64,000 nt of DNA, from positions 4,861,694 through 4,925,693 of the forward strand of contig OY282378.1 of the NCBI GenBank assembly GCA_958295835.1, read 5' to 3'. This stretch comes from an uncultured Gammaproteobacteria bacterium. GTDB lineage: Bacteria; Pseudomonadota; Gammaproteobacteria; HK1. Numbering within the stretch: the stretch's first letter is position 1; every line of letters begins with the position of its first letter. A program made the translations under genes and the position numbers. Below, one piece after another: positions 7,059-22,431 of the stretch. The notes beneath the pieces were generated by a model. That model was given only the letters and a program-made list of their open reading frames with translations, was not told the origin of the DNA and made no database searches.

Positions 7059-8546
7059 ATGAGCGACACGACGACATCCGCGGACCTCGACGCACGCAAG
7101 CGCGCCCTGCTCGAAGCGTTTCGCCGCTTCCTCCCCCAAGCCTCCGTGCTCCACACCGAGGAGGCGCTGAAGCCCTACGAATGCGACGGGCTCACCGCGT
7201 ACCGGCAGGTGCCCCTCGTCGCGGTGCTTCCCGAGACGGTCGGGCAGGTGCAGGAGGTGATGCGCACCTGCTCGCGCCTCGGCGTGCCGGTGGTCGCGCG
7301 GGGGGCGGGCACGGGGCTCTCGGGCGGCGCCCTGCCGCTGGCCGGCGGGGTCCTGCTGAGCCTCGCGAAGCTCAACCGGATCCTGGAGGTGGATACGGTC
7401 AACCGCGTGGCGCGGGTGCAGCCGGGGGTGCGCAACCTCGCGATCTCCGAGCACGTCGCGCCGCTCGGGCTCTACTACGCGCCGGACCCCTCCTCGCAGA
7501 TCGCGTGCAGCATCGGCGGCAACGTCGCGGAGAACGCGGGGGGGCTCCACTGCCTGAAGTACGGCCTCACCGTGCACAACGTCCTGGAGCTCACCGTGAT
7601 CACCGTGGACGGGGAGCGCATGACCATCGGCAGCGGCGCCCTCGACGCCCCCGGCTACGATCTGCTGGCGCTGATGACCGGCTCGGAAGGGCTGCTCGGA
7701 GTGGTGGTCGAGGTCAGGGTGAAGCTCCTGCCGAAGCCCGCCTGCGCGAGGGTGCTGCTCGCGGCGTTCGAGGACGTGGAGAGCGCCGGCGCGGCGGTGG
7801 GCGCGATCATCGCCGGGGGCGTCCTCCCCGCCGGACTGGAGATGATGGACAACTTCGCCATCCGCGCCACCGACGACTTCTGCGGCGCGGGCTATCCGAC
7901 CGATGCCGCCGCTATCCTGCTCTGCGAGCTCGACGGCATCGAGGCGGAGGTCGAGGACCGGATCGCGGAGGTGGGCGAGGTGCTCCACCGCTGCGGGGCG
8001 ACCGAAGTGCGGGTGGCGCGCGACGAGGCCGAACGCGCGCGCTTCTGGGCCGGGCGCAAGGCCGCCTTCCCCGCCGCCGGCCGGCTCTCGCCGGACTACC
8101 TCTGCATGGACGGCACCATCCCGCGGCGCGAATTGCCGGCGGTGCTCAACCGCATGAAGGCGCTCTCCGAGGAATCGGGCCTGCGGATCATGAATGTGTT
8201 CCACGCCGGCGACGGCAACCTGCATCCGCTGATCCTCTACGACGCGAACGCGCCGGACGAGCTCGAGACGGCCGAGCGTGTCGGTGCACGGATCCTCGAA
8301 TTGTGCGTCGAGGTCGGGGGGACGATCACCGGCGAGCACGGGGTGGGGGTGGAGAAGATCGACCAGATGTGCGTGCAGTTCGCATCCCCGGAGCTTGCGC
8401 AGTTCCACGCCGTGAAGGGCGCGTTCGACCCGCACGGGCTGCTCAACCCCGGCAAGGCGGTGCCGACCTTGCAGCGCTGCGCCGAGTTCGGCGCCATGCA
8501 CGTGCACGGCGGCCGGCTGCCGTTCGCGGAGATCGAGCGGTTCTGA
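7059..8546 (+). CDS. glcD: Glycolate oxidase FAD-binding subunit GlcD
   Basis: This 495-residue flavoprotein oxidises glycolate to glyoxylate together with GlcE and GlcF. The PCMH-type FAD domain is clear: VVARGAGTGLSGGALPLAGG, then GGNVAENAGGLHCLKYG and GSEGLLGVVVEVRVKLLP. The C-terminal domain contains NVFHAGDGNLHPLILYD, EHGVGVEKI and the end motif FDPHGLLNPGKAVP. Length and motifs fit GlcD fully. GlcE and GlcF normally follow directly; here they lie 12.7 kb downstream, beyond an unrelated cluster. Confidence 0.95.
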   Translation: MSDTTTSADLDARKRALLEAFRRFLPQASVLHTEEALKPYECDGLTAYRQVPLVAVLPETVGQVQEVMRTCSRLGVPVVARGAGTGLSGGALPLAGGVLLSLAKLNRILEVDTVNRVARVQPGVRNLAISEHVAPLGLYYAPDPSSQIACSIGGNVAENAGGLHCLKYGLTVHNVLELTVITVDGERMTIGSGALDAPGYDLLALMTGSEGLLGVVVEVRVKLLPKPACARVLLAAFEDVESAGAAVGAIIAGGVLPAGLEMMDNFAIRATDDFCGAGYPTDAAAILLCELDGIEAEVEDRIAEVGEVLHRCGATEVRVARDEAERARFWAGRKAAFPAAGRLSPDYLCMDGTIPRRELPAVLNRMKALSEESGLRIMNVFHAGDGNLHPLILYDANAPDELETAERVGARILELCVEVGGTITGEHGVGVEKIDQMCVQFASPELAQFHAVKGAFDPHGLLNPGKAVPTLQRCAEFGAMHVHGGRLPFAEIERF

Positions 8547-8704
8547 ACGAATCCGGCGAGCCCGATGGGTAAATGGATGGTAAGGCATCATGTAGGATTC
8601 CCCCGGCCCCGTTCCGCGCGGGCTCGACACCGCCTCCGCAATGGACGACCGACGGGCGGGAGGCGGAAGGCGCAAACCCGTTTCCATCGAAAGGGAGAAC
8701 GAGC

Positions 8705-8995
8705 ATGGACATCGACCTCTCCTCCGTGGCCGCACGCAACGAGGCGATCGTCTTCACCGACCTCGACGACACCGTCGTGATGATGGACGTCGACGAGGGG
8801 CAGTACTACGAGCTCGATCCGATCGGGGCGAGAATCTGGACCTTGATCGAGGCCGCCCGGCCCGTGGCCGAGATCTGCGACGCGCTGGCGGGCGAGTACG
8901 ACGTCGATCCCGACACCTGCCGCCACGACACGCTGGAATTCCTGCAAACGGCAAGCGAGTACCGGCTCGTCCGGGTGCAGCCCGCCGGAGCGTGA
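8705..8995 (+). CDS. PqqD-like RiPP recognition protein (lasso B1-like)
   Basis: This 96-residue protein has the PqqD/RRE fold signature: a beta-rich N-terminus (EAIVFTDLDDTVVMMDVDEGQYYELD), the hinge PIGARIWTLIE, then helices with ICDALAGEYDVDPDTCRHDTLEFL. Such domains bind leader peptides and deliver precursors to modifying enzymes; in lasso systems this role is called B1. The start at 8705 has AAAGGGAG upstream. It is the first gene of the inserted block between glcD and glcE. PqqD-like proteins also occur in exopolysaccharide clusters with HprK-like kinases, so the RiPP role depends on the two peptide genes at 13.7-14.4 kb. Confidence 0.82.
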   Translation: MDIDLSSVAARNEAIVFTDLDDTVVMMDVDEGQYYELDPIGARIWTLIEAARPVAEICDALAGEYDVDPDTCRHDTLEFLQTASEYRLVRVQPAGA

Positions 8996-9157
8996 AAGAG
9001 GCGCGAGTCCGGCCTCCGGCCGCGGCCTCGTCGAAGGGGACCGATGCCCCCGAGCAGGACGGCGAATCCCGCGTGAGCCACCCTGCTCCCGGCGCGGCGG
9101 GTAGGTCCGGCGTTGGCGAAAGGCAGCGGGTTCCTCCTGTCCGGTACCGGTCCTGAC

Positions 9158-10120
9158 ATGGCCCTGTCCGGCACACCTCCCGGCTCGGCGGAGCCCGGGC
9201 CCGATCCGGGGGGCGAGCATCGAAGGGTCTGCCTCGCCACGGTGACCACGGACGGCTTCCTGCCCGGAACGCTGGTGATGGTCGCGTCCTTCCTCAAGGC
9301 ACACCCCGGCTTCGACGGGGACGTGGCCGTCATCCACGACGGGCTGTCCGAAGAAGCGAAGGCGTGCCTCGGGGCGTTGTACGACCGGGTGCGGTTCGAG
9401 ACGCCCTCCGCCGAGCTCAAGGACCGGCTGGCCCGCGTGGGCGCCGCCCACCCCCGCTTCGCGCCCATCCTGTGCCATCTGCATGCGTTCGAAGCGTACC
9501 GGCTGGCCGGGTATCGGAAGGTGCTGCTCTGCAACGGCGACCTGCTGTTCCGGCAGCCGATCGACGAGCTGTTCGATGCCGAAGACCTTCTGCTGTGTTG
9601 CGGAGACCAGGTTTTTCTGGCGGGAGGATACCGTGACGCGGCGACCTTCATGCCTCTGGCCGCCCCGTCATGCGCGGGCGCCGCCGGCGTCCTTGGACAG
9701 ACGTTCAACGACGGGTTTCTGGTCCTCGACGGCAGCCTTCCGGGAGAGCGGCGCTATGCGGACCTGCTGGCCCTGGTGACGCCGGAGACGTGGCGCGACA
9801 CCGACACGCCGCATTTCAAGCAGCTCGTCCACAACCGGTACTTCACGGGGCGGCAAACGTTGATCAGCTCCGCGTACAACTACATCCTGCTGGCCGCTAC
9901 CGCCATTCGGGCGAGGGAGGGGCTTGCCGCGACGGACGCCAAGGTCCTGCATTTCAATCTGAACGCGAAGCCCTGGATGCCGGCGACGATGCTGCGCTGG
10001 ATGAACGGCGGGACGCCGGTCCCCGAGTTCAGGCTCTGGTACGACGCCTGGATGGACTCGCTGTCCGTCGGTCATCTCCGCGCTTCGAAGCGATCCGTGC
10101 GATGGACGGTCGTTGCATGA
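9158..10120 (+). CDS. GT8-like glycosyltransferase, single domain
   Basis: This protein of 320 residues resembles family 8 (glycogenin-like) glycosyltransferases. The nucleotide-sugar block reads RVCLATVTTDGFLPGTLVMV, and the metal site reads YRKVLLCNGDLLFRQP, with N-x-D where the two domains at 17.8-19.9 kb have D-x-D. A C-terminal block LHFNLNAKPWMP with conserved His and Lys is also typical. It is a paralogue of the double protein at 17806-19893. A TTG at 9113 in frame is an alternative start. Its 3' end overlaps the convergent HprK-like gene by 49 bp. The acceptor may be a peptide of this cluster; that is inference. Confidence 0.8.
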   Translation: MALSGTPPGSAEPGPDPGGEHRRVCLATVTTDGFLPGTLVMVASFLKAHPGFDGDVAVIHDGLSEEAKACLGALYDRVRFETPSAELKDRLARVGAAHPRFAPILCHLHAFEAYRLAGYRKVLLCNGDLLFRQPIDELFDAEDLLLCCGDQVFLAGGYRDAATFMPLAAPSCAGAAGVLGQTFNDGFLVLDGSLPGERRYADLLALVTPETWRDTDTPHFKQLVHNRYFTGRQTLISSAYNYILLAATAIRAREGLAATDAKVLHFNLNAKPWMPATMLRWMNGGTPVPEFRLWYDAWMDSLSVGHLRASKRSVRWTVVA

Positions 10121-11052
10121 GGGGCAGCGGCTCCTTGCCGGCCCATCTCACCCAGCCACTCCTCGATTCGATCCGCCAGCGCGTCGAGCCGGAACGCAGA
10201 CGCGGGCCTCCTCACGCCCACGACCGGCACACGCCTTGCCAGCGCCACGAAGGTGCGGAAGTGGGCCGGCTGCTGCCCGAGCCCGCGCAGGTACTTCCCG
10301 CGGTAGGTATGCCTGCACAGCCATCCGAAGGCGTCGGCGGGCGGCGCCGTCCGGACCTCGATGCGCTCCCGCTGGTGGCTCCCCAGCACACAGACGGCGC
10401 GCACCGCCAGCGGTGTGGTCCGGAATCGCTCCACCGGGACCAGATACTTCTCCCACCCCTCCCGCACCCTGCCCCGCGCCCGTTCCTGCCAGGCCAGCTC
10501 GTCCAGCGTGTCTGCCCACAGCTTCATGCGGGGAAAGGCGGACAGCGCCACCGCACCGCCGCCCGCGTCCGGCACCACCCCCGTCACGTCGTCGGCCAGC
10601 ATCGCGTAGCCGCGCTCGACGAGCGCCGCGAGCAGCGACGATTTGCCTGTGCCCGGATCGCCCGCGAACAGCACCGCCCCCGAATCCGTCTCAATGGCGC
10701 CGGCATGAAGGAGGGCCACGCCACGCTGCTGCAACAGGGCGGCGAACACCGAGCCGGTGAGGAAGAGGCCGACCACGTCGTCGCTGCCGCCCCTCGGCTC
10801 GACGAGGATGTCGCGGCCGCCGGTGACCAGGAATCGGGCGCCGTCGCGCACGTTCCTCAGGTAGGCGCCGGGGGCGGTCTCCCACGGGCCGCGGCTTTCG
10901 ACGGGCGCCGGGAGCGCCTCCGGGGTCGCGCCGATGCGGACCGTCACGTCCGGTTCACCGGCCGGGGGGACGGGAACGCGGATGAACGGCAGGGCGATGG
11001 GCGAGCGCACCCACAGCCCATACGCCCGATAATCGAGCAGAGGGCGGCTCAC
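10072..11052 (-). CDS. HPr-kinase/serine-kinase-like protein, candidate RiPP tailoring kinase
   Basis: This 326-residue protein has a complete P-loop (GDPGTGKSSLL, residues 131-141) preceded by LLHAGAIETDSGAVLFA and followed by a MLADDVTGVVP segment, matching the HprK/P kinase fold. HprK-like kinases (LasK type) phosphorylate the C-terminal Ser of some lasso precursors; both candidate peptides here end in Ser. The GTG start at 11052 is supported by a second locus whose HprK copy begins VSRPLRDYRAYGLWVR after the same GTGA overlap. The upstream partner in this overlap is an ATPase fragment rather than an intact gene. Confidence 0.8.
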   Translation of the reverse strand: MSRPLLDYRAYGLWVRSPIALPFIRVPVPPAGEPDVTVRIGATPEALPAPVESRGPWETAPGAYLRNVRDGARFLVTGGRDILVEPRGGSDDVVGLFLTGSVFAALLQQRGVALLHAGAIETDSGAVLFAGDPGTGKSSLLAALVERGYAMLADDVTGVVPDAGGGAVALSAFPRMKLWADTLDELAWQERARGRVREGWEKYLVPVERFRTTPLAVRAVCVLGSHQRERIEVRTAPPADAFGWLCRHTYRGKYLRGLGQQPAHFRTFVALARRVPVVGVRRPASAFRLDALADRIEEWLGEMGRQGAAAPHATTVHRTDRFEARR

Positions 11053-11243
11053 ACGGGATCCACCGTCTTGCCCGTCCGGCGCGGTGCGTGCAGCACGATG
11101 CATTTCTTCATCCGAACGAGCGCCGGCGCCTCGTCGAGGTCGAAACGCCCGAGCGGCGGGAGGCAGTGGTGGTCCGCGGGTCTGACGGGACCGGTGGTGT
11201 CGAAGAAGCGCACGGCCTCGGTTCCTCGATTCCTCGTTTCCAT
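11049..11243 (-). pseudogene. Truncated AAA-ATPase-like gene (N-terminal fragment ending at the P-loop)
   Basis: A 64-residue frame reads METRNRGTEAVRFFDTTGPV, then RPADHHCLPPLGRFDLDEAP and IVLHAPRRTGKT, and ends four residues after the Walker A Lys-Thr. The pattern FF.TTGP.RP.DH...PP plus APRxTGKT is the start of a widespread family of 450-550-residue AAA-ATPase-like proteins. Everything after the P-loop is missing. Its stop overlaps the HprK start as GTGTGA, the same overlap geometry a sulfotransferase has with the HprK copy at 42451. A rearrangement joining this fragment to the HprK 5' end is the simplest reading. Confidence 0.6.
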
Positions 11244-11432
11244 CGGCAACGTCCCTGCCGGTGGTCGTTGCAGGCCGCCGTCGGCATGACCGCTTCCGCA
11301 CGGCGGTGCCTCCGGTATCATCCGGCACAGCCTCGGTCTCGTGCAACCATGATCGGGCAGCCGTGCCATCGTCGACCGCGAGCGCCGACACGCCTTGGAA
11401 CCTCCGGTTGATTCCGTAGAACATGTTCACAC

Positions 11433-11550
11433 GATGGACTCCCTCGATGCGTTCTCCAGCCGAACGGCGGCGGGGGGCGATGCGCCCGCCGCCGGGACGC
11501 TCCCGCACGTTGCCCATGCGCCGGACGGCGCCGGCGCCCTGATGCGATGA
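11433..11550 (+). CDS. Possible 38-residue leader ORF coupled to the cyclase gene
   Basis: ATG at 11433 opens a frame (MDSLDAFSSRTAAGGDAPAA and 18 more residues) whose TGA overlaps the cyclase ATG as ATGA. No Shine-Dalgarno sequence is visible. The stretch RTAA..DAPAA is repeated upstream of the cyclase-start remnant at 17684, where the frame runs straight into the cyclase start without a stop. It could be a coupling peptide or chance. Confidence 0.25.
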
Positions 11551-13434
11551 CGGCGATCTGCGGCACGGTCGGGCGCCACGAGGCCCCGGCGGGCGGGGTG
11601 GACGCCATGCTGGCGGCAATGACCCACTCCGGCGCCGACGTCGCCTCCTGGACCGATGCCGGCGTGAGCCTCGGGCGCCGTTGCGCCGCGGGCGACGGCG
11701 CGACGCCCCGGGGCGCCGCGGCCCCGGCCCCGGCGCCGGACGTTCCCGGCACGGTCGTCGTGGCCGATGCCCGGCTCGACGACCGCGATACGCTTTGCGG
11801 CGCGCTGGGCCTGCCGCCCGCCGCCCGCGCGGCCCATGACGACCGCGCCCTCATCGCGAAGGCGTACCGGCGATGGGGCGCCGACTGTCCGCGCCACCTC
11901 CTCGGCGACTACGCCTTCGCCGTGTGGGACGCGGCGAAGCGCACGCTGTTCTGCGCTCGGGACCACGTCGGCGCGCGGCCGTTCTACTACGCCGAGACGC
12001 GGCGAGGGTTCGTCTTCGCCAGCGCCATCGAAGCCGTGCTCGCCGGCCCGGACGTCGGCCGCGAGCTCGACGAATTCACGGTGGGGATGTGGCTGATGAG
12101 GAGGGACGCGGAGCTCCCCGCCACAAGCACGTTCTTCCAGGCCGTGCGCAGGCTGCCGCCGGGGCATGGCCTCGTGGTCACGAACGGCGCGGTGCGGCTG
12201 CAACGCTACTGGCGGCCGGAGGACGTGCCGCGGGCGGCGCCGGCCTCCGACGACGACTACGCCGAGGAGTTTCTGGCCCTGTATTCGCGGGCGGTGAAGG
12301 ACCGCCTGTGCGGCCCCGGCCGGATAGGCGTCCATCTGAGCGGCGGCCTGGACTCGTCGAGCGTCGCGGTCCTCGCCGCCCGCGAATTGCGGCGCCAGGG
12401 CCGTCCGCCGCCGCCTGCCTTCACCTGGCTGCCGCCATTGGGCGAAGAGCCGCCGGGGGAGAGCGGTGGGTGGGAGTACGATGCCGTCGGCGCGGTGGCC
12501 GGGCAGGAGGGGTTGCATGTGTTCCTCCAGCCTCCAACCGCGGCGGACACCCTCGCCCTGCTGCGGTGCGACGGCGCCTTTCCACAAGCGCACGTTGGTC
12601 CCAACGAAGCGGCAGTGCAGCGCGCAGCCGCCGCGCACGGGGTGCGCGTGCTGCTGTCCGGCCTGGGGGGCGACCAGGGCATCTCCTTCAACGGCTACGG
12701 ATATTACGCCGGCCTGCTGCTGGGTGGACGTTGGGCCGCGTTGTTCGCCGAGGCGCGCGCCCGCGGGAGCAATCCGCTCCGGGTGGCGGCCGGCACCGCG
12801 TTGAGGGTTCTTCCACACGGCTACAAGCTGCTCATTCCGAGGAACAGGCTGCGCAAGTGGTTGCAGGGGGACCCGGAGCCGAGGGCCCGGCGCTTCATCA
12901 ACCGGGCGTTCGCGCGGGAAAGGCCGTTTCCCCCCCCCCCCCCCCCCCCGAACGAGACGTTGGCCGACGAGTGCGCGAAGGGGTCAATTGGAGTCGTTGG
13001 GCCACCGGGGTCTTGGCGAGCACCTGGAGTGGTGGGCCGCCAGCGGCGTTCGCCACGGCCTGGAGTACCGGTATCCGCTGCTGGACCGCCGGGTGCTGGA
13101 GCTCGCCTTGAGCCTCCCGACGGAACAGTTCAGGCGCGGGCCGTCGAGCCGCTGGCTGATGCGCCATGCGCTGGCCCTCGATGCCGTCCTGCCGCCCGAG
13201 GTGTGCTGGCACGAGTCCAAGAGCGACCCGGCGCGTTTCAACGCGGCATCCGACGCATTCCTCGGGGCGCTGCCGTCGATTCGGCGGGAGCTCGCCGCCC
13301 GTGCCGTGCCGCCGGGCCGGGCCCGCTACGTCGACATGCCGCGCCTCGTCGAACGTCTGGAGGACCCGGCCCTGTCCAGGAGGAGACGTTCGTGGTCGGG
13401 GCTTGCGGCGGCCTTGTCGTTTCTTGATTTCTGA
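11547..13434 (+). CDS. Asparagine-synthase-like lasso cyclase (C protein), frame broken at a poly-C tract
   Basis: The N-terminal glutaminase-like domain starts MTAICGTVG. Cys is at position 5 and not 2, so the glutaminase nucleophile is absent, as in lasso cyclases. It continues with LLGDYAFAVWDAAKRTLFCARDH. The synthetase domain has the ATP-binding HLSGGLDSSSVAVLAA at about residue 263 and LLSGLGGDQGISFNGYG. The frame is read to a 20-nt C run at 12930-12949; homology then resumes one frame over (LGEHLEWWAASGVRHGLEYR, YPLLDRRVLELALSLPTEQF) to the stop at 13434. The combined product of about 625 residues has the normal length of lasso C proteins. Without slippage the product ends at 13427 with an unrelated tail. 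Confidence 0.8.
12930..12949 (+). repeat. 20-nt poly-C homopolymer inside the cyclase gene
   Basis: Twenty consecutive C residues follow CCGTTT at 12924-12929. They encode a proline run and are exactly where the cyclase frame must change by one base. This could be a slippage-prone contingency tract or a sequencing/assembly length error. Confidence 0.9.
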
Positions 13435-13587
13435 CACCATCGGACAGCACGCCGGACGCCGGCGACGCGCGCGGCCGGCCGGGCGCCGCCGACGTGGGCC
13501 GCGGCGGCGAGCAGGCCGCCGGCTCGGGCAGGCGCCTCGACTTGAGAAGAAGGCGATTGCGCGGCCTTGAAACCACCTGGCCCTCCG

Positions 13588-13617
13588 TTGACGCCGTGGC
13601 CCGGTCGAGTCGAGAAT
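13588..13617 (+). promoter_or_regulatory. Putative sigma-70 promoter of peptide gene 1
   Basis: TTGACG at 13588-13593 and GAGAAT at 13612-13617 are separated by 18 bp, 67 bp before the peptide ATG. The same pair is kept in the second repeat unit with a consensus -35 (TTGACA). Confidence 0.45.
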
Positions 13618-13683
13618 TGCACTCCCTGTCCATACTGCGAAGCTCGGATGATGGTGCCGAGCCTTGGCTGGAGAAGAAACGAG

Positions 13684-13881
13684 ATGACGCATGTCCCCCC
13701 CACGTCTGAGCCTGAGGACCTGCAGCGCTCCGAACACTCGCCGACGCAGAGCTCCGAACGAACGTGGTCCAAGCCCCAAGTGAGGCGGGTGATGCTCACA
13801 GGCACAGGCGGTAACCCCGATTCCCTGCCTGGTACGCGTGAATGGGGGGGGTTCGGTGGTACCTACAGACCCTCCAGCTAG
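13684..13881 (+). CDS. Candidate lasso-like RiPP precursor 1 (65 residues)
   Basis: The peptide begins MTHVPPTSEPEDLQ and has a leader motif TWSKPQVRRVMLTGTGG (residues 27-43), close to the W/Y-x-x-P-x-V/L motif that PqqD-type recognition proteins bind. The C-terminal part (44-65) contains PD at 45-46, GT at 50-51, E53, several Gly and YRP, and ends in Ser65. A good SD (GGAG) lies upstream. It follows the cyclase on the same strand. If cut between G42 and G43, the first acids are D4 and E11, which does not fit a canonical 7-9-residue lasso ring; starting at G40 would put Asp at position 7. The cleavage site is therefore open. Confidence 0.65.
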   Translation: MTHVPPTSEPEDLQRSEHSPTQSSERTWSKPQVRRVMLTGTGGNPDSLPGTREWGGFGGTYRPSS

Positions 13882-14092
13882 CAGACAAAGGTAGTCCGGA
13901 GCGTCTCGGCCTCGGTCGCCTTCCGGTGGTGGCCCCCGGTACACGGGCGGCGCCCCACCGCCAGCGGGACGTCGGCGGCGCCCGGCCGGCCGGGCGCCGC
14001 CGACGTGGGCCGCGGCGGCGAGCAGGCCGGACAGATGACGTGCTACTACACCGGACAGACTATTTGCTCCTGACAAACCACTTGGCCCTCCG

Positions 14093-14122
14093 TTGACACC
14101 GTGGCCCGGTCGAGTCGAGAAT
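14093..14122 (+). promoter_or_regulatory. Putative sigma-70 promoter of peptide gene 2
   Basis: TTGACA at 14093-14098 and GAGAAT at 14117-14122 are spaced by 18 bp. The arrangement matches the first repeat unit base for base except the last -35 position. Confidence 0.5.
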
Positions 14123-14188
14123 TGCAGTGCCGGTTCATGCTGCGAAGCTCGAATGGTGACGCCGAGCCTTGGCTGGAGGAGAAACGAG

Positions 14189-14386
14189 ATGACGCCTGTC
14201 CCCCCCACGCCTGAGCCTGAGGACCTGCAGGGCTCCGAGCGCTCGCGGACGCAGAGCTCCGGACGAACGTGGTCCAAGCCCCAAGTGAGGCGGGTGATAC
14301 TCACAGACACAGGCGGTGAACCCGATCGCCCGCAGGGTACTCAGGAAGCGGGGAATGTAGGCGAGGGCTACAGACCCATGAGCTAG
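14189..14386 (+). CDS. Candidate lasso-like RiPP precursor 2 (65 residues)
   Basis: This is a paralogue of precursor 1 with identical length. The leader reads TWSKPQVRRVILTDTGG at residues 27-43. The C-terminal region (44-65) keeps PD, GT, E53, G55, G58, YRP and the terminal Ser, but differs at most other positions. The leader is conserved and the core has diverged, as expected when one enzyme set processes two products. SD GGAGGAG precedes the ATG at 14189. Confidence 0.65.
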   Translation: MTPVPPTPEPEDLQGSERSRTQSSGRTWSKPQVRRVILTDTGGEPDRPQGTQEAGNVGEGYRPMS

Positions 14387-14845
14387 CAGACGAAGCAGTC
14401 CGGAGCGTCTCGAAGCAACCTTTCACCGGCAGGCGCCGGCCGCCGGTACCGTCTCGACCTCGATCGCCTTCCGGTGGCGGCCCCCGGTACACGGGCGGCG
14501 CCCCACCGCCAGCGGGGCGGCCGGAACCGCTCCCTCGTCAGGACATACCGGCCCTGTCAGAAAATTTTCTTCAATCCAGCTTGCACGAGGACGGCGTTGG
14601 CCGTGTGCCGAGACTTGACGTCACCGTCCACCGGGAAGCTCCGATTCGAGATCGTACTGAACCAGATTTCGTGATCCCCGCGTCCTTGACGGACGAAACG
14701 GCACCCGGACGCCTTGAGGTGCTTCCTCTTTTTTCTCCGACCGCTACATTTGCCACGCCCGGAAACGGTATCGCGTCAGGTAAGGGCCTGACAACCGGCG
14801 GTCTTGTCCAACGAGAGATGAGCCTGAAGGGAGCCGGATCCTGGT
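14387..14845. other. Gap between peptide gene 2 and sulfotransferase 1
   Basis: No gene is supported here. The stretch contains the end of the second tandem unit (to about 14520) and, at 14801-14832, a 32-bp sequence found again in inverted orientation at 46643-46674. Confidence 0.5.
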
Positions 14846-15784
14846 TCAATCTCGCATCTCGTAGCCAAAATGGCCGAAGAGGTCGCAGCGCTCGTGGAAC
14901 ACCCGATTGAACGCGGCGACCTGTCCGGCGGTGAGGCGCGCGATCTGCCGGGCGTTCATGTCGGTGAGCATCTCGTCGTACCGGCCCTTCACCGGCAGGC
15001 GCCGGCGCAGCTCCAGGTCGCCGAGCTCCGGGGCCAGCGCCTGGATCTCCCGCCCCACCCGCTCCGGATCCGCGCACATCGCCTCGTAGGTGAAGAACAC
15101 CCCGCGGCGCCCGTGGGCTTCGACGTTGCGGCGCTGGCGGGCAAGGCAGTTCACGACGTGCACGGCCGCCCATTCTTCCAGGCCGCGTCCCTGCCACGTC
15201 GCCGATGCCGGGTCCGCACCGTGCCTTTCCCGGTAGCTTCGGCAGATCCCTTCGCAGGCCGCGTAAGGGTCGCGCACCATGAACAGGAACCTGGCGTTGC
15301 GGAAGTGCCGTGCCAGCATGTCCACCTGGAAGAGCGCCCGCGGCGAGTGCACGACGAACACCGACGCCTTCGGGTCGCGGGCGCGCGCCATGAAATACCA
15401 CGCCTTGCGGTTGCGCGGCCAGTCGTAACCGGCGGCGCCGGCCAGCCGGTCCATGCGTGGCCGGCTGGCCGCCCAGAGCTTGGATGGTCTCGGCATGTCG
15501 GGTGACTCCACCCGAGGGGGCTGGACGAAGCCCGGCATCCGATCGGCCTCGCCGGGCAGGCTCCAGGCCGACCGGCAGGCGGCCAGCGCTTTCCCAAGGA
15601 ACGTCGACCCGCCGTGATTCGCCGAGATGACGAACAAGTGGGTCCCGATCGTGGGCTCCAGGTCGCGGCCGGCGGCGTACACCATCCCCCCCGCTCCGTC
15701 GTCCGCGCACCGGCCGTGCGGACGAGTTGCGCAAGCGCTACGGGGACCGGGTCCGGTGGGTGCGCATCCGTCGCCCGTCCGCAT
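14846..15784 (-). CDS. Sulfotransferase family protein 1
   Basis: This protein of about 312 residues carries a 5'-phosphosulfate-binding loop (SANHGGSTFLGKALAAC) and a 3'-phosphate motif (RFLFMVRDPYAACEGICRSY) of PAPS-dependent sulfotransferases. The ATG at 15784 is chosen because the paralogue at 19890-20876 starts with the same pattern (MRTGDG versus MQTDDG); an upstream ATG at 15823 is also in frame. The C-terminal halves of the two paralogues are almost identical (LTDMNARQIARLTAGQ). A sulfated peptide or glycan product is inferred from the context. Confidence 0.78.
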   Translation of the reverse strand: MRTGDGCAPTGPGPRSACATRPHGRCADDGAGGMVYAAGRDLEPTIGTHLFVISANHGGSTFLGKALAACRSAWSLPGEADRMPGFVQPPRVESPDMPRPSKLWAASRPRMDRLAGAAGYDWPRNRKAWYFMARARDPKASVFVVHSPRALFQVDMLARHFRNARFLFMVRDPYAACEGICRSYRERHGADPASATWQGRGLEEWAAVHVVNCLARQRRNVEAHGRRGVFFTYEAMCADPERVGREIQALAPELGDLELRRRLPVKGRYDEMLTDMNARQIARLTAGQVAAFNRVFHERCDLFGHFGYEMRD

Positions 15785-15828
15785 GGTGGACTCGCCCCCG
15801 GTGACCCGAAACGTGCGTATCATGCCCG

Positions 15829-17682
15829 ATGCGTCCCAGGCCGGGGAATGGGTGGTTGCAAGGGAGAAGCGGAGGCGGAGATGGCCGTCACTCGTGCAAC
15901 CGCGCGGACGCCGAAACGGGCCGCTGTCCCATCAAGGCTTTCTCGCGGATCGTGCTGCTGGCGGCGGGCCTCGGCCACGGCGGCGAACCGGCCGCCGCCG
16001 CGCCGCAACGTTCGGCTTGGTTCGGCGATCTTCAAGTGCATACGATGTACTCCACCCACTCGTTCTTGAGGAGAAACCACCGCACCACGCCGGACGACGC
16101 CTACCGATACGCCAAGGGGGGCGCCATCCCCCACCCGCGGGGCGGGGAGGTGAAGCTGTCCGGGCCTCCGCTCGACTTTCTCGCCGTCACCGATCACGCG
16201 GACTTCATGGGCGCGGCGCTGCCGTTGCTCCACCTCGCGAACGACAGCCCTCGGGGCTACCCGGTATCCGAAACCGTCAGGCGGGCGGTGGTGCGCCTCG
16301 TCGAGTCGGGCCGCCTTCAGGAAGTGAGGCGCCGTGCCTGGCGACGCACCGTGGAGGCCGCCGAGCGGCACAACGAGCCGGGCAGGTTCACCACGTTCAT
16401 CGGTTACGAATGGGCGTTCCGCCTTCACGGGAGCAACCTGCACCGCCACGTCGTCTTCGGGAGCGCTGACGTGCCGGCGCTGCCGCTCGGCCCCCGGTAC
16501 TCGCGGGGTCCCGAGGATTTGTGGGACTGGCTCGACCGCCAGCGCGGGCAGGGCATCGAAGCGCTGGCCATCCCGCACAACATGGACAAGAGCAGGGGGC
16601 TCGCCTTTCCGGAGACCGACTGGAAGGGGCGGCCGATCGATCGGGCCTTCGCGGAGAAGCGCCTGCGCAACGAGCCGGTCGTCGAGATCATCCAGGAGAA
16701 GGGTGTTTCCGAGACGCACCCCCTGTTTTCGCCGAACGACGAATGGGCCGACTTCCAGACGTTCCGGTACTACGACGGCAGGGAGAGCCCGGTGGGCGAC
16801 TACTACCGGCAGGGGCTGAAACGCGGCCTCGCGATCGAACGGCGCATCGGCGTCAATCCCTACCGGTTCGGTGCGGTCGGCGGCAGCGACAGCAAGCTGG
16901 GCGCGGGCGCCTTCGATGAAGCCGACTTTTTCAAGTCGAGGCTCGAGCCGCACGAGCGCGGCTCGGCGTACCCGGAAGAACAGGGCGGCTGGGAAGGCTA
17001 CCGGACGCCCCACGTCGCCACTCACGGCAGCGCCGGCCTGACCGGCCTCTGGGCGGAAGAGAACACCCGCGCCGCGCTGTTCCGGGCCCTGCGTCGCCGC
17101 GAGACGTTCGCCACCTCCGGGCCGCGCTTGCGCGTGCGCTTCTTCGGGGGGTTCGGGCTGGCGCAAGGAATCGAGCAGTCCCGGGACCCCGTCGCCGCGG
17201 GCTATGCCCACGGCGCGCCCATGGGCGGGGTGCTGACCGGCGCGGCCGGATCGGCGCCGGACTTCTTCGTCTGGGCCATGCGCGACCCGCGGTCCGGCCG
17301 GCTGCAACGGGCCCAGATCGTCAAGGGCTGGCTGGAGGACGGCGAGGCCCGCGAGCGGGTGTTCGACGTCGCCTGCTCGGGCGGCCTGGAGCCGGACCCG
17401 GACAGCCATCGCTGCCCCGACAACGGCGCGCGCGTCGACCTCGCCGATTGCTCGGTCAGCCGGGACCGGGGCGCGGCGGAGCTGCGCACGGTGTGGACCG
17501 ACCCGGACTTCGATGCCGGCCAGCCCGGTTTCTATTACGTGAGGGTGCTCGAGAACCCGAGCTGCCGCTGGTCCACTTGGGACGCCGTCCGCGCCGGCAT
17601 CGAACCCAATCCCGTCCTGCCCCCGGTCATCCAGGAGCGAGCCTGGAGCTCGCCCGTGTGGTATGCGCCCGGCGGCCCGTAG
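15829..17682 (+). CDS. DUF3604 family protein (PHP-like metallohydrolase fold)
   Basis: This 617-residue protein has the DUF3604 features WFGDLQVHTMYSTHSF, LDFLAVTDHADFMG and FIGYEWAF, with GGSDSKLGAGAF and a C-terminal WSSPVWYAP. The spaced His and Asp residues suggest a metal-dependent phosphoesterase-like site; the biochemical role of the family is not settled. A hydrophobic stretch (FSRIVLLAAGLGHGG) before PAAAAPQ may be a signal peptide, which suggests a periplasmic enzyme. It is divergent from sulfotransferase 1. The start is uncertain; the ATG at 15829 is the first in frame. Why it sits in this cluster is unknown. Confidence 0.8.
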   Translation: MRPRPGNGWLQGRSGGGDGRHSCNRADAETGRCPIKAFSRIVLLAAGLGHGGEPAAAAPQRSAWFGDLQVHTMYSTHSFLRRNHRTTPDDAYRYAKGGAIPHPRGGEVKLSGPPLDFLAVTDHADFMGAALPLLHLANDSPRGYPVSETVRRAVVRLVESGRLQEVRRRAWRRTVEAAERHNEPGRFTTFIGYEWAFRLHGSNLHRHVVFGSADVPALPLGPRYSRGPEDLWDWLDRQRGQGIEALAIPHNMDKSRGLAFPETDWKGRPIDRAFAEKRLRNEPVVEIIQEKGVSETHPLFSPNDEWADFQTFRYYDGRESPVGDYYRQGLKRGLAIERRIGVNPYRFGAVGGSDSKLGAGAFDEADFFKSRLEPHERGSAYPEEQGGWEGYRTPHVATHGSAGLTGLWAEENTRAALFRALRRRETFATSGPRLRVRFFGGFGLAQGIEQSRDPVAAGYAHGAPMGGVLTGAAGSAPDFFVWAMRDPRSGRLQRAQIVKGWLEDGEARERVFDVACSGGLEPDPDSHRCPDNGARVDLADCSVSRDRGAAELRTVWTDPDFDAGQPGFYYVRVLENPSCRWSTWDAVRAGIEPNPVLPPVIQERAWSSPVWYAPGGP

Positions 17683-17683
17683 C

Positions 17684-17830
17684 CGAACGGCGGCGAGCGA
17701 TGCGCCCGCCGCCAAGTCCGCACGTTGCCCATGCGCCGAGCCGCAACGTCGCCCCGATGCGGTGACGGGGATCTGCGGCACGGTCGCACGCCCGGGACGG
17801 AGCGGTCATCCAGCCGCGCCGGAGGCGCCC
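17684..17830 (+). pseudogene. Remnant of a cyclase 5' region and start
   Basis: The upstream region of the cyclase gene (11459-11546) and its first codons are repeated here. The block CCGAACGGCGGCG...CGCACGTTGCCCATGCGCC is followed by a GTG-start frame reading VTGICGTVARPG, which resembles MTAICGTVGRHE of the intact gene. Homology stops after about 12 codons, and the DNA then overlaps the 3' end of the double glycosyltransferase. Confidence 0.6.
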
Positions 17831-19893
17831 GCGCCCCGATGCGCATCGGGGCGCGGGAAGGCGCTGCGCAAACGTACGGCCGCCAGGCAGTCCACGTAGG
17901 CGCCGTACCAGTGCTTGAAGCACGGCGTCATCGCGTCCCGGGCCTTCCCGCCCGCCCACGCGAGCATGGCGTCCGGCCTCCACGGCTTGATGGACGCCCG
18001 GAAATGCAGCACCTTGGCGTTCCGGATGCCGATCCCTTCGCGCGCCTGGATCACGTCGGCCCGCGGGAGCAGGTAGTTGTAGGTCGAGCTCACCAGCGTC
18101 TGGCGCCCCGCGAAGTAGCGGTTCAACACGAGCTGATCGGCGATCCGGACCCTGGCGCGGCGCCAGGTCTCCCCGGACACCATCTCCAGCAGGCCGGCGT
18201 AGCAGCCTGCCCGCACCAACCCTTCGTCGATCAGGAGCAGGCCGCTGTTGAACGTTCCCGCCAAGGTAGAGGATTCCCCGGCGACCGCCTCGGGGCGGCT
18301 CCCGACTGCGGACGGCCGCCCCTCCGGCGTTCGCCGGCCGGAGGCGTCCTCGACCGGCAGGTAGGTGACGGCATCGCGGGGCAGCCCGCGCAGATGCGGC
18401 TCGTCACCGCAGCAGAGCAACGCGTCGCGGGAATCGAACAGCTCCGCGATCGGTGCGCGAAACAGCAGGTCGCCGTCGCAGTACAGCACCTTGCGGTAAC
18501 CGTGCAGGCGGAACGCCTCGAGGGAGTAGAAATGCGCCAGCCTGTCGCGCAGCCTCGGCTGCTCGGCGGACAGGCAGGCCAGCCGATCCCGGAGCTCGGG
18601 CGAGATGGGCTCGAAGCGCAGGCGTTCGGACAGAGGCGCCAACGCCTCGCGCGACGCCGCGGACAGGCCGTCGTGGATGACGACGACGTCCCCGTCGAAG
18701 CGGGGATGATGTTTCAGGAAGGTGCCGAGCATGGCGAACGTGCCCGGCACGAAACCGTCCGTGGTCCCCGTGACCAGACAGACCCTCGAAGGGCGGGGGG
18801 CGACCGCTGGCGCGGTCGCTTGGCGATTCCGCTGCGCGGAATCGCGGGTGCTGCCGGCCACCGCTGGCGCGGTAGCGGCAGCGGCCGGCCCGCGCCGAGG
18901 CGGGGCTTCCGCGAAGCGTTCGCGTTCGGGCCGCTGCGGCGGCCCCCGGAACGGGGCGGGGTTCCGGGGAACCACGGCGATGCCCGGCCGGCCGAGCGCG
19001 TGCCGCAGATGCGCATCCGCCAGACAGTCCATGTAAGCGTCGTACCAGAGCTTGTAGCCCGGGGCGAGCGGGCGGGCGGCGTCCCTGCGCGCCCAGTACA
19101 GCATGGCGTCCGGCGCCCAGGGCTTCATGGGCAGCTTGAAGTGCAGCACCCTGGCGTCCTCGACGCCGATCCCCTCGCGGGCCCGGATGGCGTCGGAGCA
19201 GTCCACCAGGTAGTTGTACGTCGAGCTGACCAGCGTCTGCCGCCCGGCGAAGCGGCGGTTGAGGACGAGCTGGTCGTCGCCCACCGCCTTGACCCCGCGC
19301 CAAGCCTCCGGCGAGATCCTGGCCAGCAGGTCCGCATGCGCGCCCTCCCCCATGAGCCGCCCGTCGAGGAGCAGGAAGCCGCTGTTGAACGTTTCCGCCA
19401 GGGTGGGCGCGGCCGGTGCGGCAACGGGGACGACCGGATCGTCGGCCGGCAGGTAGGTCACCGCGTCGCGCCGCCGGCCGCGCAGGGAGTACTTGTCGCG
19501 GCAGCAGATCAGCGCCTCGGGGGAGTCGAACAACTCCTCGACGGAGGCGCGGAACAGCAGGTCGCAGTCGCAGCACAGCACCTTGCGGTAGCCGTGCAGG
19601 CGGAACGCATCGAGGACGTAGAAAGCTGCCCGCCGGGCGCGGAGCTCCGGACGCACGGCGCACAGGCGCGCCACCCGATCCCGGAGCTCGGGAGAGACGG
19701 GCTCGAACCGCAGGCGGTGGAACGACGCCGCGAGCACTTCGCGCGATGCGTCGGACAGCCCGTCGTGGACGATGACGACGTCCCCGTCGAAGCGGGGATG
19801 GTGCTTCAGGAAGGTGCGCACCATGACGAACGCGCCCGGCACGAAATCGTCCGTGGCCACCGTGAGCAGGCACGTCTTCGACCGCCGCATCAC
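17806..19893 (-). CDS. Double GT8-like glycosyltransferase (two fused domains)
   Basis: This 695-residue protein consists of two GT8-like domains. Domain 1 (about 1-300) has CLLTVATDDFVPGAFVMV, YRKVLCCDCDLLFRAS and LHFKLPMKPWAPDAM. Domain 2 (about 360-680) has RVCLVTGTTDGFVPGTFAML, YRKVLYCDGDLLFRAP and LHFRASIKPWRPDAM. Both keep the metal-binding D-x-D. They are joined by an Ala/Pro/Arg-rich linker and are paralogous to each other and to the single-domain enzyme at 9158. It overlaps sulfotransferase 2 by 4 bp, so the two are co-translated. Two successive sugar transfers, or a two-site enzyme, are possible. Confidence 0.82.
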   Translation of the reverse strand: MMRRSKTCLLTVATDDFVPGAFVMVRTFLKHHPRFDGDVVIVHDGLSDASREVLAASFHRLRFEPVSPELRDRVARLCAVRPELRARRAAFYVLDAFRLHGYRKVLCCDCDLLFRASVEELFDSPEALICCRDKYSLRGRRRDAVTYLPADDPVVPVAAPAAPTLAETFNSGFLLLDGRLMGEGAHADLLARISPEAWRGVKAVGDDQLVLNRRFAGRQTLVSSTYNYLVDCSDAIRAREGIGVEDARVLHFKLPMKPWAPDAMLYWARRDAARPLAPGYKLWYDAYMDCLADAHLRHALGRPGIAVVPRNPAPFRGPPQRPERERFAEAPPRRGPAAAATAPAVAGSTRDSAQRNRQATAPAVAPRPSRVCLVTGTTDGFVPGTFAMLGTFLKHHPRFDGDVVVIHDGLSAASREALAPLSERLRFEPISPELRDRLACLSAEQPRLRDRLAHFYSLEAFRLHGYRKVLYCDGDLLFRAPIAELFDSRDALLCCGDEPHLRGLPRDAVTYLPVEDASGRRTPEGRPSAVGSRPEAVAGESSTLAGTFNSGLLLIDEGLVRAGCYAGLLEMVSGETWRRARVRIADQLVLNRYFAGRQTLVSSTYNYLLPRADVIQAREGIGIRNAKVLHFRASIKPWRPDAMLAWAGGKARDAMTPCFKHWYGAYVDCLAAVRLRSAFPRPDAHRGAGASGAAG

Positions 19894-20876
19894 CTTCTCC
19901 CTCCGGGAGCGGCGCTCTTCCCTGGGAGCGATGCTCCCCCCGGAAGCGGCGTTTCTCCCGGCCGGAGCGCCCCGCCATCAAGCATCTCGTAGCCGAAGTG
20001 GTCGAAGAGATCCCGGCGCTCGCGGAAGACCCGGTTGAACGCGGCGATCTGCCCGGCGGTGAGGCGGGCGATCTGCCGGGCGTTCATGTCGGTAAGCACC
20101 TCGTCGTACCGGCCCTTCACCGGCAGGCGCCGGCGCAGGTCCAGATCGTCCAGCTCCGGGACCAGCGCCCGGATCTCCCGCGCCACCCGCTCCGGATCCG
20201 CGCACATCGCCTCGTAGGTGAAGAACACCCCGCGGTCCCCGCGGGCTTCGACGTTGCGGCGCTGGCGGGCAAGGCAGTGGACGACGTGGGCGGCGGCCGT
20301 CTCTTCCAGGCTCCGTCCCCCCTCCGCGGCCCCCGGCAGGTGGTCCCGCCCGAACCGGCGCCGGAAGCTCCGGCAGATCCCCTCGCAGACCGCGTAAGGG
20401 TTGCGCACCATGTACAGGAACCTGGGGTTGCGGAAATGCCGGGCGAGCTGGCCGACCTGGAAGACGTGCTGCGACGACTTCTCGACGAACACCGATGCGC
20501 CGGGGTCGCTGGCGCGGGCGAAAAAATACCATGCCTTGCGGGTGCGCGCCCAGTCGTGGCGGCCCGGATCGGCGAAGAGGGCGATGCTGCGCGGCTCGGC
20601 GGCCCAGATGGCGAGCTCCGGGCCCTGCGTCGTGACCGGCCCGGCGTAGCCGGGGACCGCCTGGCCCTCACAGGGAAAGCTCCAGACGGCCCGGCAGGCC
20701 GCCAATGCGCCCGCCAGGAAGGAGGAGCCGCTGTTGTTCGGGCAGATGACGAACAGGTGAGCGGCGATCGTGTTCTCCGGGTCGCGGGTGGCGCCGCGGA
20801 CGAGCGCACGCTCCGCTCCGGCGGCCCGAGGCGGTCCGGTCCTGTGTGCGGGTGCGCGTCCGTCGTCCGTCTGCAT
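19890..20876 (-). CDS. Sulfotransferase family protein 2
   Basis: This 328-residue paralogue of sulfotransferase 1 shares the 5'-phosphosulfate loop (CPNNSGSSFLAGALAAC), the 3' motif (RFLYMVRNPYAVCEGICRSF) and a nearly identical C-terminus. Its C-terminal tail repeats a PG.A/S pattern (GETPLPGGASLPGKSAAPGG). The ATG at 20876 is the only reasonable start. It is followed, with a 4-bp overlap, by the double glycosyltransferase. Confidence 0.78.
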   Translation of the reverse strand: MQTDDGRAPAHRTGPPRAAGAERALVRGATRDPENTIAAHLFVICPNNSGSSFLAGALAACRAVWSFPCEGQAVPGYAGPVTTQGPELAIWAAEPRSIALFADPGRHDWARTRKAWYFFARASDPGASVFVEKSSQHVFQVGQLARHFRNPRFLYMVRNPYAVCEGICRSFRRRFGRDHLPGAAEGGRSLEETAAAHVVHCLARQRRNVEARGDRGVFFTYEAMCADPERVAREIRALVPELDDLDLRRRLPVKGRYDEVLTDMNARQIARLTAGQIAAFNRVFRERRDLFDHFGYEMLDGGALRPGETPLPGGASLPGKSAAPGGRR

Positions 20877-21039
20877 GGTGGGCTGGTCCGATGATCCGGA
20901 AGGTGCGGGACGCCGCCTGCGCGGCGCCGGCGGCGGTGCGGCCCAGGCGCCGCTTCAACCTTCTTGATCGAGCGAATTCGACGAGTCGCGGCAGCACTCG
21001 GCGAATTGACCCGAATTTTGAAAGGTTCCCTTATGATAG

Positions 21040-21131
21040 AACCGGGGAGTCGTTCAAGGACACGATTCTTCTGCGAAGACCATCGGCAGAGAACGATCGT
21101 TCAGCATTCCATGAATTCATCGACACGGCCT
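21040..21131 (-). mobile_element. Decayed IS5-family element end
   Basis: The sequence from about 21058 to 21130 (CATCGGCAGAGAACGATCGT ... TTCCATGAATTCATCGACACGGCCT) is a diverged copy of the right end of the IS at 24387-25266. Its reverse frame reads MNSWNAERSFSADGLRRRIV, which resembles the start of that IS's transposase frame. It lies exactly at the junction between the inserted cluster and glcE. Confidence 0.65.
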
Positions 21132-21280
21132 GATGAAGGGAGATGGCGTGCAGAGACGCCGGCGGAACCGCCACCTCTGCCCCGTACATCGCGGCGGGCT
21201 CACTCACCGTCACCACTCGGGTCAACCTTTCCCGCATCCGACGTCGCCCTGCCACCAGCCCGTTACGATGGATTCGATCG

Positions 21281-22357
21281 ATGGACGCCGACCTGACCGA
21301 ATCCCTGTCCGCGAGGATCCGGGCCGCCGCCGATGACGGTACGCCGCTGGCGATCGCCGGGGGTGGCACCAAGGACTTCCTGGGCCGCATCACGCAGGCG
21401 GAACGATTCGACGTCTCCGGCCACCGGGGCATCGTCACCTACGAGCCCACCGAGCTCGTGCTCTCCGCGCGCGGCGGCACCCCGCTCGCGGAAGTGCGGG
21501 CGGCGCTCGCGGAGAAGGGGCAGATGCTCGCCTTCGAGCCGCCCGCGTTCGGCGAGGCTGCGACCATCGGCGGCGCCGTGGCGGCCGGGCTCTCCGGCCC
21601 GGCCCGCCCCTACGCCGGGGCGGCGCGCGACTTCGTGCTCGGCACCCGGGTGCTGAACGGCCGGGGCGAGGCATTGCGCTTCGGCGGCGAGGTGATGAAG
21701 AACGTCGCCGGGTACGACGTCTCGCGCCTCATGACCGGCGCGTTCGGCACCCTGGGGGTGCTGCTCGAGGTCTCGCTGAAGGTGCTGCCGCGCCCGGCGC
21801 AAGCGCGCACCCTCGCGTTCGAGACGAGCACGGAGGAAGCGATCGCGCGATGCAACGCCTGGGCCGCGAAGCCGCTGCCGATCACCGGCGCCTGCCACCA
21901 CGGCGGACGCCTGTACGTGCGGCTCGCGGGCACGGCGGGGGGCGTCGCCGCCGCGGCCGATGCCCTCGGCGGTGAGACCGTCGACGGCGAGACCGTCGAT
22001 GGCGATGCGTTCTGGCCGGCGCTCCGCGAACAGGCCCTCCCCTTCTTCACCCGGCACGGCCCGCCGCTGTGGCGGGTGTCGGTCCCCCCCGGCGCCCCGG
22101 CCCTGGACGTCGACGGCGACCGCCTCACCGACTGGGGCGGCGCCCAGCGCTGGCTGCGCACCGACGCGCCGGCCGCGGAGGTGCGTGCCGCCGCCGGGCG
22201 CATCGGCGGACATGCAACGCTCTTCCGCGGCGGCGATCGCACCGACGCGGTGTTCCATCCCCCGGCCCCGGCGGTGCTGAAGCTCCACGAGAGGATCAAG
22301 GCCGCCTTCGACCCGGCCGGCATCCTCAACCCCGGCCGGATGTACGAGGGGATCTGA
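21281..22357 (+). CDS. glcE: Glycolate oxidase FAD-binding subunit GlcE
   Basis: This 358-residue protein has the PCMH-type FAD fold (PLAIAGGGTKDFLGR; VLSARGGTPLAEV; GGEVMKNVAGYDVSRLMTGAFGTLGVLLEVSLKVLP) and the family ending FDPAGILNPGRMY. GlcE pairs with GlcD and GlcF at the membrane. A Val/Asp/Gly/Glu/Thr repeat (GETVDGETVDGD) interrupts the middle. The ATG at 21281 is used because the FAD domain begins soon after it. glcF follows after 74 bp. Confidence 0.93.
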   Translation: MDADLTESLSARIRAAADDGTPLAIAGGGTKDFLGRITQAERFDVSGHRGIVTYEPTELVLSARGGTPLAEVRAALAEKGQMLAFEPPAFGEAATIGGAVAAGLSGPARPYAGAARDFVLGTRVLNGRGEALRFGGEVMKNVAGYDVSRLMTGAFGTLGVLLEVSLKVLPRPAQARTLAFETSTEEAIARCNAWAAKPLPITGACHHGGRLYVRLAGTAGGVAAAADALGGETVDGETVDGDAFWPALREQALPFFTRHGPPLWRVSVPPGAPALDVDGDRLTDWGGAQRWLRTDAPAAEVRAAAGRIGGHATLFRGGDRTDAVFHPPAPAVLKLHERIKAAFDPAGILNPGRMYEGI

Positions 22358-22431
22358 AATGCAGACCCGGATCGACGATCTCGACCCGACCGGCGCCTTC
22401 AGCCCCAGGCCGACTCCCGACAGGTCCTGAA

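Follow-up and report, generated by a model that had tools for sequence, protein, structure and literature searches.

A candidate lasso-peptide cassette with a putative ring acid at core position 11, a frameshifted cyclase and poly-C tracts in an uncultured gammaproteobacterium

Gene content of the cassette

The window, i.e., the whole analysed stretch of 64,000 nucleotides from an uncultured gammaproteobacterium (G000), harbored a cassette encoding a leader-binding protein, a lasso cyclase, two short precursors and several tailoring enzymes (Table 1). The cassette splits the glycolate-oxidase-like genes glcD (7059-8546) and glcE/glcF (21143-23652). It occupied the same site in the relative G003 and another site in G005, while glcD and glcE were adjacent, with no cassette between them, in five relatives (G001, G002, G004, G005, and G012), the behaviour of a movable cassette. 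A DUF3604 gene (15829-17682) also lies within the cassette; the orthologous G003 and G005 cassettes match it over its first 27 codons only.

Table 1. Features of the cassette and its surroundings, in window coordinates
Feature	Position	Strand	Basis or remark
Cassette, ~12.5 kb, between glcD and glcE	8582..21072	.	boundaries are ends of blastn matches
B1, PqqD-family leader-binding protein	8708..8995	+	PF05402, 75.5 bits, over cut-off
GT8 glycosyltransferase	9113..10120	+	PF01501, over cut-off
HprK-like kinase, presumed target C-terminal Ser of precursor	10072..11019	-	weak family matches below cut-off
Lasso cyclase gene, two frames broken at poly-C tract	11547..13434	+	NF033535 in both pieces, below cut-off
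Poly-C tract C20 in cyclase	12930..12949	+	C13 in paralogue L022; 8-nt CCCGCCCC in G003 and G005
Promoter-like pair 5' of A1, TTGACG-18-GAGAAT	13588..13617	+	consensus match only
Precursor A1, 65 aa	13684..13881	+	orthologues L029, L041
Promoter-like pair 5' of A2, TTGACA-18-GAGAAT	14093..14122	+	consensus match only
Precursor A2, 65 aa	14189..14386	+	predicted core GEPDRPQGTQEAGNVGEGYRPMS
Sulfotransferase 1 (ST1)	14846..15823	-	PF13469
Fused double GT8 glycosyltransferase	17806..19893	-	PF01501, two stretches
Sulfotransferase 2	19890..20876	-	PF13469

An asparagine-synthetase-like cyclase beside the precursor and a B1 protein, both expected of lasso clusters, were present, though the cyclase gene is frameshifted. 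NF033535 was the best family for the cyclase, with a score under its 525-bit cut-off. The closest solved relative of B1 was TbiB1 (E 9.5e-15), and B1 scored 69 bits against a lasso-PqqD cut-off of 80 bits. The kinase fell below both the Pfam and the NCBIfam cut-offs; across 25 homologues its His105, Lys126, and Asp143 were invariant and Asp144 nearly so, matching the His-Lys-Asp-Asp residues described for PadeK-type kinases in PMC9266682. Such a kinase and a precursor with a C-terminal Ser, two marks of the paeninodin type, occur together here. The model of ST1 (pLDDT 82.5) matched tyrosylprotein sulfotransferases (TPST1/2), heparan 3-O-sulfotransferases (3-OST), and the curacin sulfotransferase about equally, so that it does not decide for tyrosine as the target. 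In related lasso loci (L059, L060, L061, L083, and L091), GT8-sulfotransferase fusions of 582-620 aa were observed, so the peptide may carry a sugar that is sulfated.

Precursors A1 and A2 and their homologues

An earlier note, made from the letters of the window, had proposed two tandem 65-residue peptides with divergent cores, and both ORFs were found with the common leader TWSKPQVRRV[MI]LT[GD]TGG. The predicted leader of A1 comprises residues 1-42 and its predicted core residues 43-65 (GNPDSLPGTREWGGFGGTYRPSS). The duplicated 505-bp unit of the note was recovered as well (start-to-start distance 505 bp; 300 nt at 86% identity), and both copies retained a promoter-like pair, the two pairs found lying 505 bp apart, against 0.1 pairs expected from shuffles. 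Base differences between A1 and A2 amounted to 9/126 in the leader, 25/69 in the core, and 12/114 upstream, with pN 0.39 and pS 0.29 in the core and pN 0.09 and pS 0.03 in the leader; this hints at a diversification of the cores, albeit from small counts. The positions that had been listed as conserved (PD45-46, GT50-51, E53, G55, G58, YRP61-63, and S65) were shared by A1 and A2, but this held only in part across the four orthologues, in which G43, G50, E53, G55, Y61, P63, and S65 were kept and PD, T51, G58, and R62 were lost. The leader also carries the motif aromatic-x-x-P-x-[LVI] (W28-P31-V33), which marks lasso leaders together with Thr (or Ile/Val) at -2, here Thr41 if the predicted cut is right. 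As the earlier note remarked, the motif is of the type bound by PqqD-like B1 proteins, and the cassette does encode a B1.

Scanning of genome contigs yielded 77 loci, the closest of them in uncultured Gammaproteobacteria/Pseudomonadales assemblies. Selected loci among the 77, as well as further genome stretches, were searched by pattern and gave more than 60 relatives of the precursors, dozens of them beside related cyclases; this set is pattern-based and neither exhaustive nor independent. The usual relative had a W-x-[KR]-P-x-[VI] leader, Thr at -2, a core starting with [STGA]-G, a Glu, and a terminal Y-x-P-x-S; a C-terminal Ser was found in A1, A2, L029, L041, and the majority of relatives. 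In both G003 (L029) and G005 (L041), an orthologous ORF adjoins the cyclase orthologue. The earlier note had named a lack of homologous ORFs next to related cyclases as the finding that would speak against its reading, and since such homologues lie beside cyclases in several related genomes, this objection falls away. With cyclase, B1, kinase, GT8, and sulfotransferase genes around them and homologues beside cyclases elsewhere, the prediction that A1 and A2 are lasso-peptide precursors is well supported.

Two related precursors (L033, 9684-9824; L086, 9296-9442) carried two conserved Cys residues (CVTRG[SN]FC), had their acids grouped late in the core, and are perhaps disulfide-bearing relatives. 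Moreover, poly-C precursor-like ORFs were detected far from cyclase matches in G000 (L147, ~2.23 Mb) and G003 (L152, ~1.17 Mb) and represent orphan precursors, that of L147 appearing altered past the leader.

Leader cleavage and the ring acid

With a core starting at Gly43, A1 and A2 have no acid at core positions 7-9, as had been remarked earlier. A cut before residue 40, which had been offered as a remedy because it would place Asp46 at position 7, was rejected, since the +1 residue would be G, D, D, and G in the four orthologues and the G003 orthologue would have no acid at position 7. Thr41 at -2 and Gly43 at +1 appear to be the better reading, and a core start at Gly43 by the Thr(-2) rule makes Glu53, the only acid common to A1, A2, L029, and L041, core position 11 and the first usable acid.

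Acid positions were counted across the precursor set. After removal of the chance matches L040 and L082 (also left out of the reading-frame counts below), 38 of 67 precursors had a Thr(-2) site and 29 had none. An acid at positions 7-9 was present in 25 of the 38 and missing there in 13, two of which (L060 and L076) rest on a poor site, so that among the 36 precursors with a usable Thr(-2) site, 11 had no acid at 7-9. These 11 include A1, A2, the G005 orthologue, and members of several other groups, one of them at L089 of the named isolate Pontixanthobacter rizhaonensis RZ02, where a related cyclase, a kinase, and a GT8 enzyme accompany a Thr(-2) precursor whose first usable acid is at position 10. 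At L037, neighbouring precursors with nearly alike leaders had the acid at position 9 in one and 11 in the other, and the G003 orthologue of A1 and A2 had acids at both 9 (Asp) and 11. That Glu at position 11 is the ring acid of A1 and A2 is slightly more probable than not.

An enlarged ring would be the simplest reading of these acid positions, and a later cut would restore a canonical one. Lasso rings are given as 7-9 residues in PMC9266682 and PMC8498205, the latter also mentioning a ten-residue ring obtained in vitro. Were the leader cut before residue 45, two residues further on, Glu53 would become a canonical position 9 and W, P, and V would stand at -17, -14, and -12, the spacing reported for other leaders in PMC10368454; however, +1 would then be Pro, Pro, Asp, and Ser in the four orthologues, -2 would be Gly instead of Thr, the Gly kept at +1 would be lost, and the first usable acid also lies at 10 or 11 in further families whose Thr(-2) is clear, so that a nine-residue ring seems rather unlikely. 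Rings of at least 10 residues might also fail to hold a tail, in which case the products would be unthreaded lariats, i.e., head-to-side-chain macrolactams, but the cyclase family and gene set of the locus are of the lasso-peptide type and this outcome is considered quite improbable. If the threaded, enlarged ring is correct, natural precursors with an acid at 10-11 would widen the range of lasso rings and provide a test of what cyclases can thread.

A single B2 peptidase and the hub locus

No B2 peptidase (PF13471) was found within the window, and the only one in the genome was located at 3.94 Mb. This hub, ~0.93 Mb from A1 and A2, contained B2, a nucleotidyltransferase (NTP_transf_5), an ABC transporter, a cyclase, a kinase, a GT8 enzyme, and sulfotransferases, with a second B1, 74% identical to that of the cassette, some 12 kb on. 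In total, G000 had three PqqD proteins: one in the cassette, one near the hub, and one elsewhere. At the hub (L024, 3626-5380), a TGA parts the nucleotidyltransferase from B2, where G003 has a single open frame (a fusion).

G000, G003, and G005 each had one B2 over the cut-off, along with six, 13 (two of them distant), and four cyclase loci, respectively. B2 was also over the cut-off in eight of nine further genomes, seven of them with a single match and G042 with two, and three genomes had additional weak matches. Matches to the cyclase profile, which take in fragments and more distant cyclases, numbered 7 (at the six loci), 13, and 4 in G000, G003, and G005, and 10, 4, 7, 6, 3, 1, 1, 1, and 1 in G038-G046. 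As G000 combines six cyclase loci with a single B2 that lies outside the window, leader removal would have to occur in trans, and it is likely that the hub B2 acts on the leader of A1 and A2. Among the literature matches listed, nothing evident concerned one peptidase serving several lasso cyclases. If true, a shared leader peptidase would explain the spread of many lasso clusters as partial cassettes in one genome, and would mislead cluster finders that require a nearby B2.

The frameshifted cyclase and poly-C tracts

The earlier note had passed over three features: the absent B2, the out-of-frame cyclase, and the poly-C tracts as part of the system. The cyclase adjoining A1 and A2 is out of frame at C20, so cyclisation would hang on slippage or on a paralogue. 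The gene was unbroken in G003, in G005, and in the paralogue L022 (~0.41 Mb in G000), a 2.4-kb duplicate of cyclase and flanking sequence that is 98% identical to 11289-13682, has C13 with an open frame, and stops just 5' of the A1 start codon; a precursor was looked for near L022 and not found.

In many related precursors, a tract of C9-C26 separates the W motif from the start codon. When only Shine-Dalgarno-like starts were accepted, 12 tract-bearing precursors were in frame, 18 were out of frame, and six were undecided, compared with 23, three, and seven of those free of a tract; in-frame starts thus made up 12/30 of the decidable precursors with a tract and 23/26 of those without one (Fisher p 2.5e-4). 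Thirteen of the 69 entries in this count are undecidable, L069 was replaced by three L159 copies, and seven precursors were added by hand. The three out-of-frame precursors with no long tract had C7 or C8 runs. Tract length also varied between close copies: the three tandem copies of a single precursor at L159 carried C17, C13, and C19, and the near-identical loci L084 and L085 carried C15 and C9.

In six genomes (G005 excluded), 37 of 113 tracts of C>=12 lay within 6 kb of a cyclase, compared with 2.8 expected (~13-fold), while none of the three tracts of G005 came within 6 kb of any of the four cyclases there. The other 76 tracts were away from lasso cyclases, and G001, G002, and G004, which have no lasso-cyclase matches, also carried poly-C tracts; the tracts are thus enriched near lasso loci rather than specific to them. 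A1 and A2 are in frame with C7 each, and the G005 orthologue, with C8, is out of frame. Among the fetched loci of this genome, no cyclase-adjacent precursor had a long tract, and only the two cyclase copies had one.

Of the marks of a contingency locus, a long homopolymer in the coding frame near the start was found in many relatives and not in A1 or A2, and differing lengths with on and off frames among copies were found as well (C17/C13/C19; 12 on, 18 off). Phase variation of the precursor family is likely but unproven, and for A1 and A2 in this genome it would act via the cyclase. Among the literature matches listed, no title concerned phase-variable precursors of lasso peptides or of other RiPPs; poly-C switching, if true, would be a route to varying RiPP output inside a clonal population.

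Homopolymers are a weak point of most sequencing, and because assembled lengths can be wrong, an artefact may account in part for the frameshift and for the on/off calls. The pattern as a whole could even be a sequencing artefact, the tracts encoding proline runs of the leader that never leave the frame in the actual genome, and an in-frame share of 12/30 equals that expected if lengths were called at random. The tandem copies nevertheless differ by 2 to 6 bases, which is beyond small calling errors, as is the difference between L084 and L085; the enrichment near lasso cyclases also stands against this explanation, and tracts of such length would be expected to slip even if miscalled. We therefore regard a pure artefact as somewhat unlikely. 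The C20 frameshift, together with the TGA between nucleotidyltransferase and B2, could alternatively mark a decaying cluster in which the cyclase is a pseudogene, A1 and A2 are no longer matured, and the homopolymer is a mutational scar. This is held to be unlikely, given that both cyclase pieces are open apart from the break and share 92-94% identity with intact orthologues, an in-frame paralogue exists in the genome, A1 and A2 each keep an open, in-frame coding sequence, and like tracts recur across many precursors.

Proposed maturation of A1 and A2

Under the preferred reading, A1 and A2 would give rise to two C-terminally decorated lasso peptides. B1 would bind the leader via W28-x-x-P-x-V, the HprK-like kinase would phosphorylate Ser65, and the GT8 enzymes and sulfotransferases would decorate Ser65 further. 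The hub B2, the sole B2 of the genome, would be used in trans to cut the leader after Thr41-Gly42, and the cyclase would join Gly43 to Glu53, forming an 11-residue ring that the tail ...Y-R-P-x-S would thread. The calculated masses of the cores after loss of water are 2376.09 (A1) and 2413.07 (A2), to which phosphorylation would add 79.97. Cyclisation would need either slippage of the C20 tract or the in-frame paralogue at 0.41 Mb, and the C9-C26 tracts past the start codon in relatives would be contingency tracts toggling single precursors. As one explanation, comprising decorated lassos, a Gly43-Glu53 ring, a trans-acting hub B2, a poly-C-dependent cyclase, and contingency tracts in precursors, this is regarded as probable with moderate confidence. 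A switchable repertoire, in which scattered loci, some with 10-12-residue rings, share one peptidase/exporter hub and poly-C slippage in the precursor genes, and here in the cyclase, chooses the peptide per cell, is put forward only tentatively, as a possibility rather than an expectation.

Comparison with known systems

Poly-C and poly-G contingency loci are known in host-associated bacteria such as Campylobacter and Neisseria. The present loci resemble them in having the homopolymer just past the start codon and on and off frames among copies, and differ in that the tracts lie in RiPP precursors and a RiPP cyclase, for which switching is a prediction from sequence.

Among lasso systems, the paeninodin type (PadeK/ThcoK/SyanK; Firmicutes and Proteobacteria) is similar in its HprK-like kinase with His-Lys-Asp-Asp, C-terminal Ser, split B1/B2, and cyclase. 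In contrast to it, A1 and A2 have no acid at 7-9, B2 lies outside the cluster, poly-C tracts are present, and GT8 enzymes occur with several sulfotransferases, sometimes fused to each other; a sulfotransferase gene is noted in some Firmicutes clusters in PMC8498205. Pseudomycoidin, which is phosphorylated and glycosylated (PsmK and the nucleotidyltransferase PsmN), finds a parallel in the nucleotidyltransferase domain fused to B2 in the G003 hub, an arrangement that PMC8498205 reports for some Firmicutes. Here, however, the nucleotidyltransferase lies in a separate hub, cyclase loci are numerous in the genomes, and GT8 enzymes come in addition. In BsfA-type precursors, position -2 is Ile or Val, and Ser3 is the kinase target in BsfA (PMC10368454); A1 and A2 differ from this type in carrying Thr at -2, whereas some of their relatives likewise have Ile or Val at that position.
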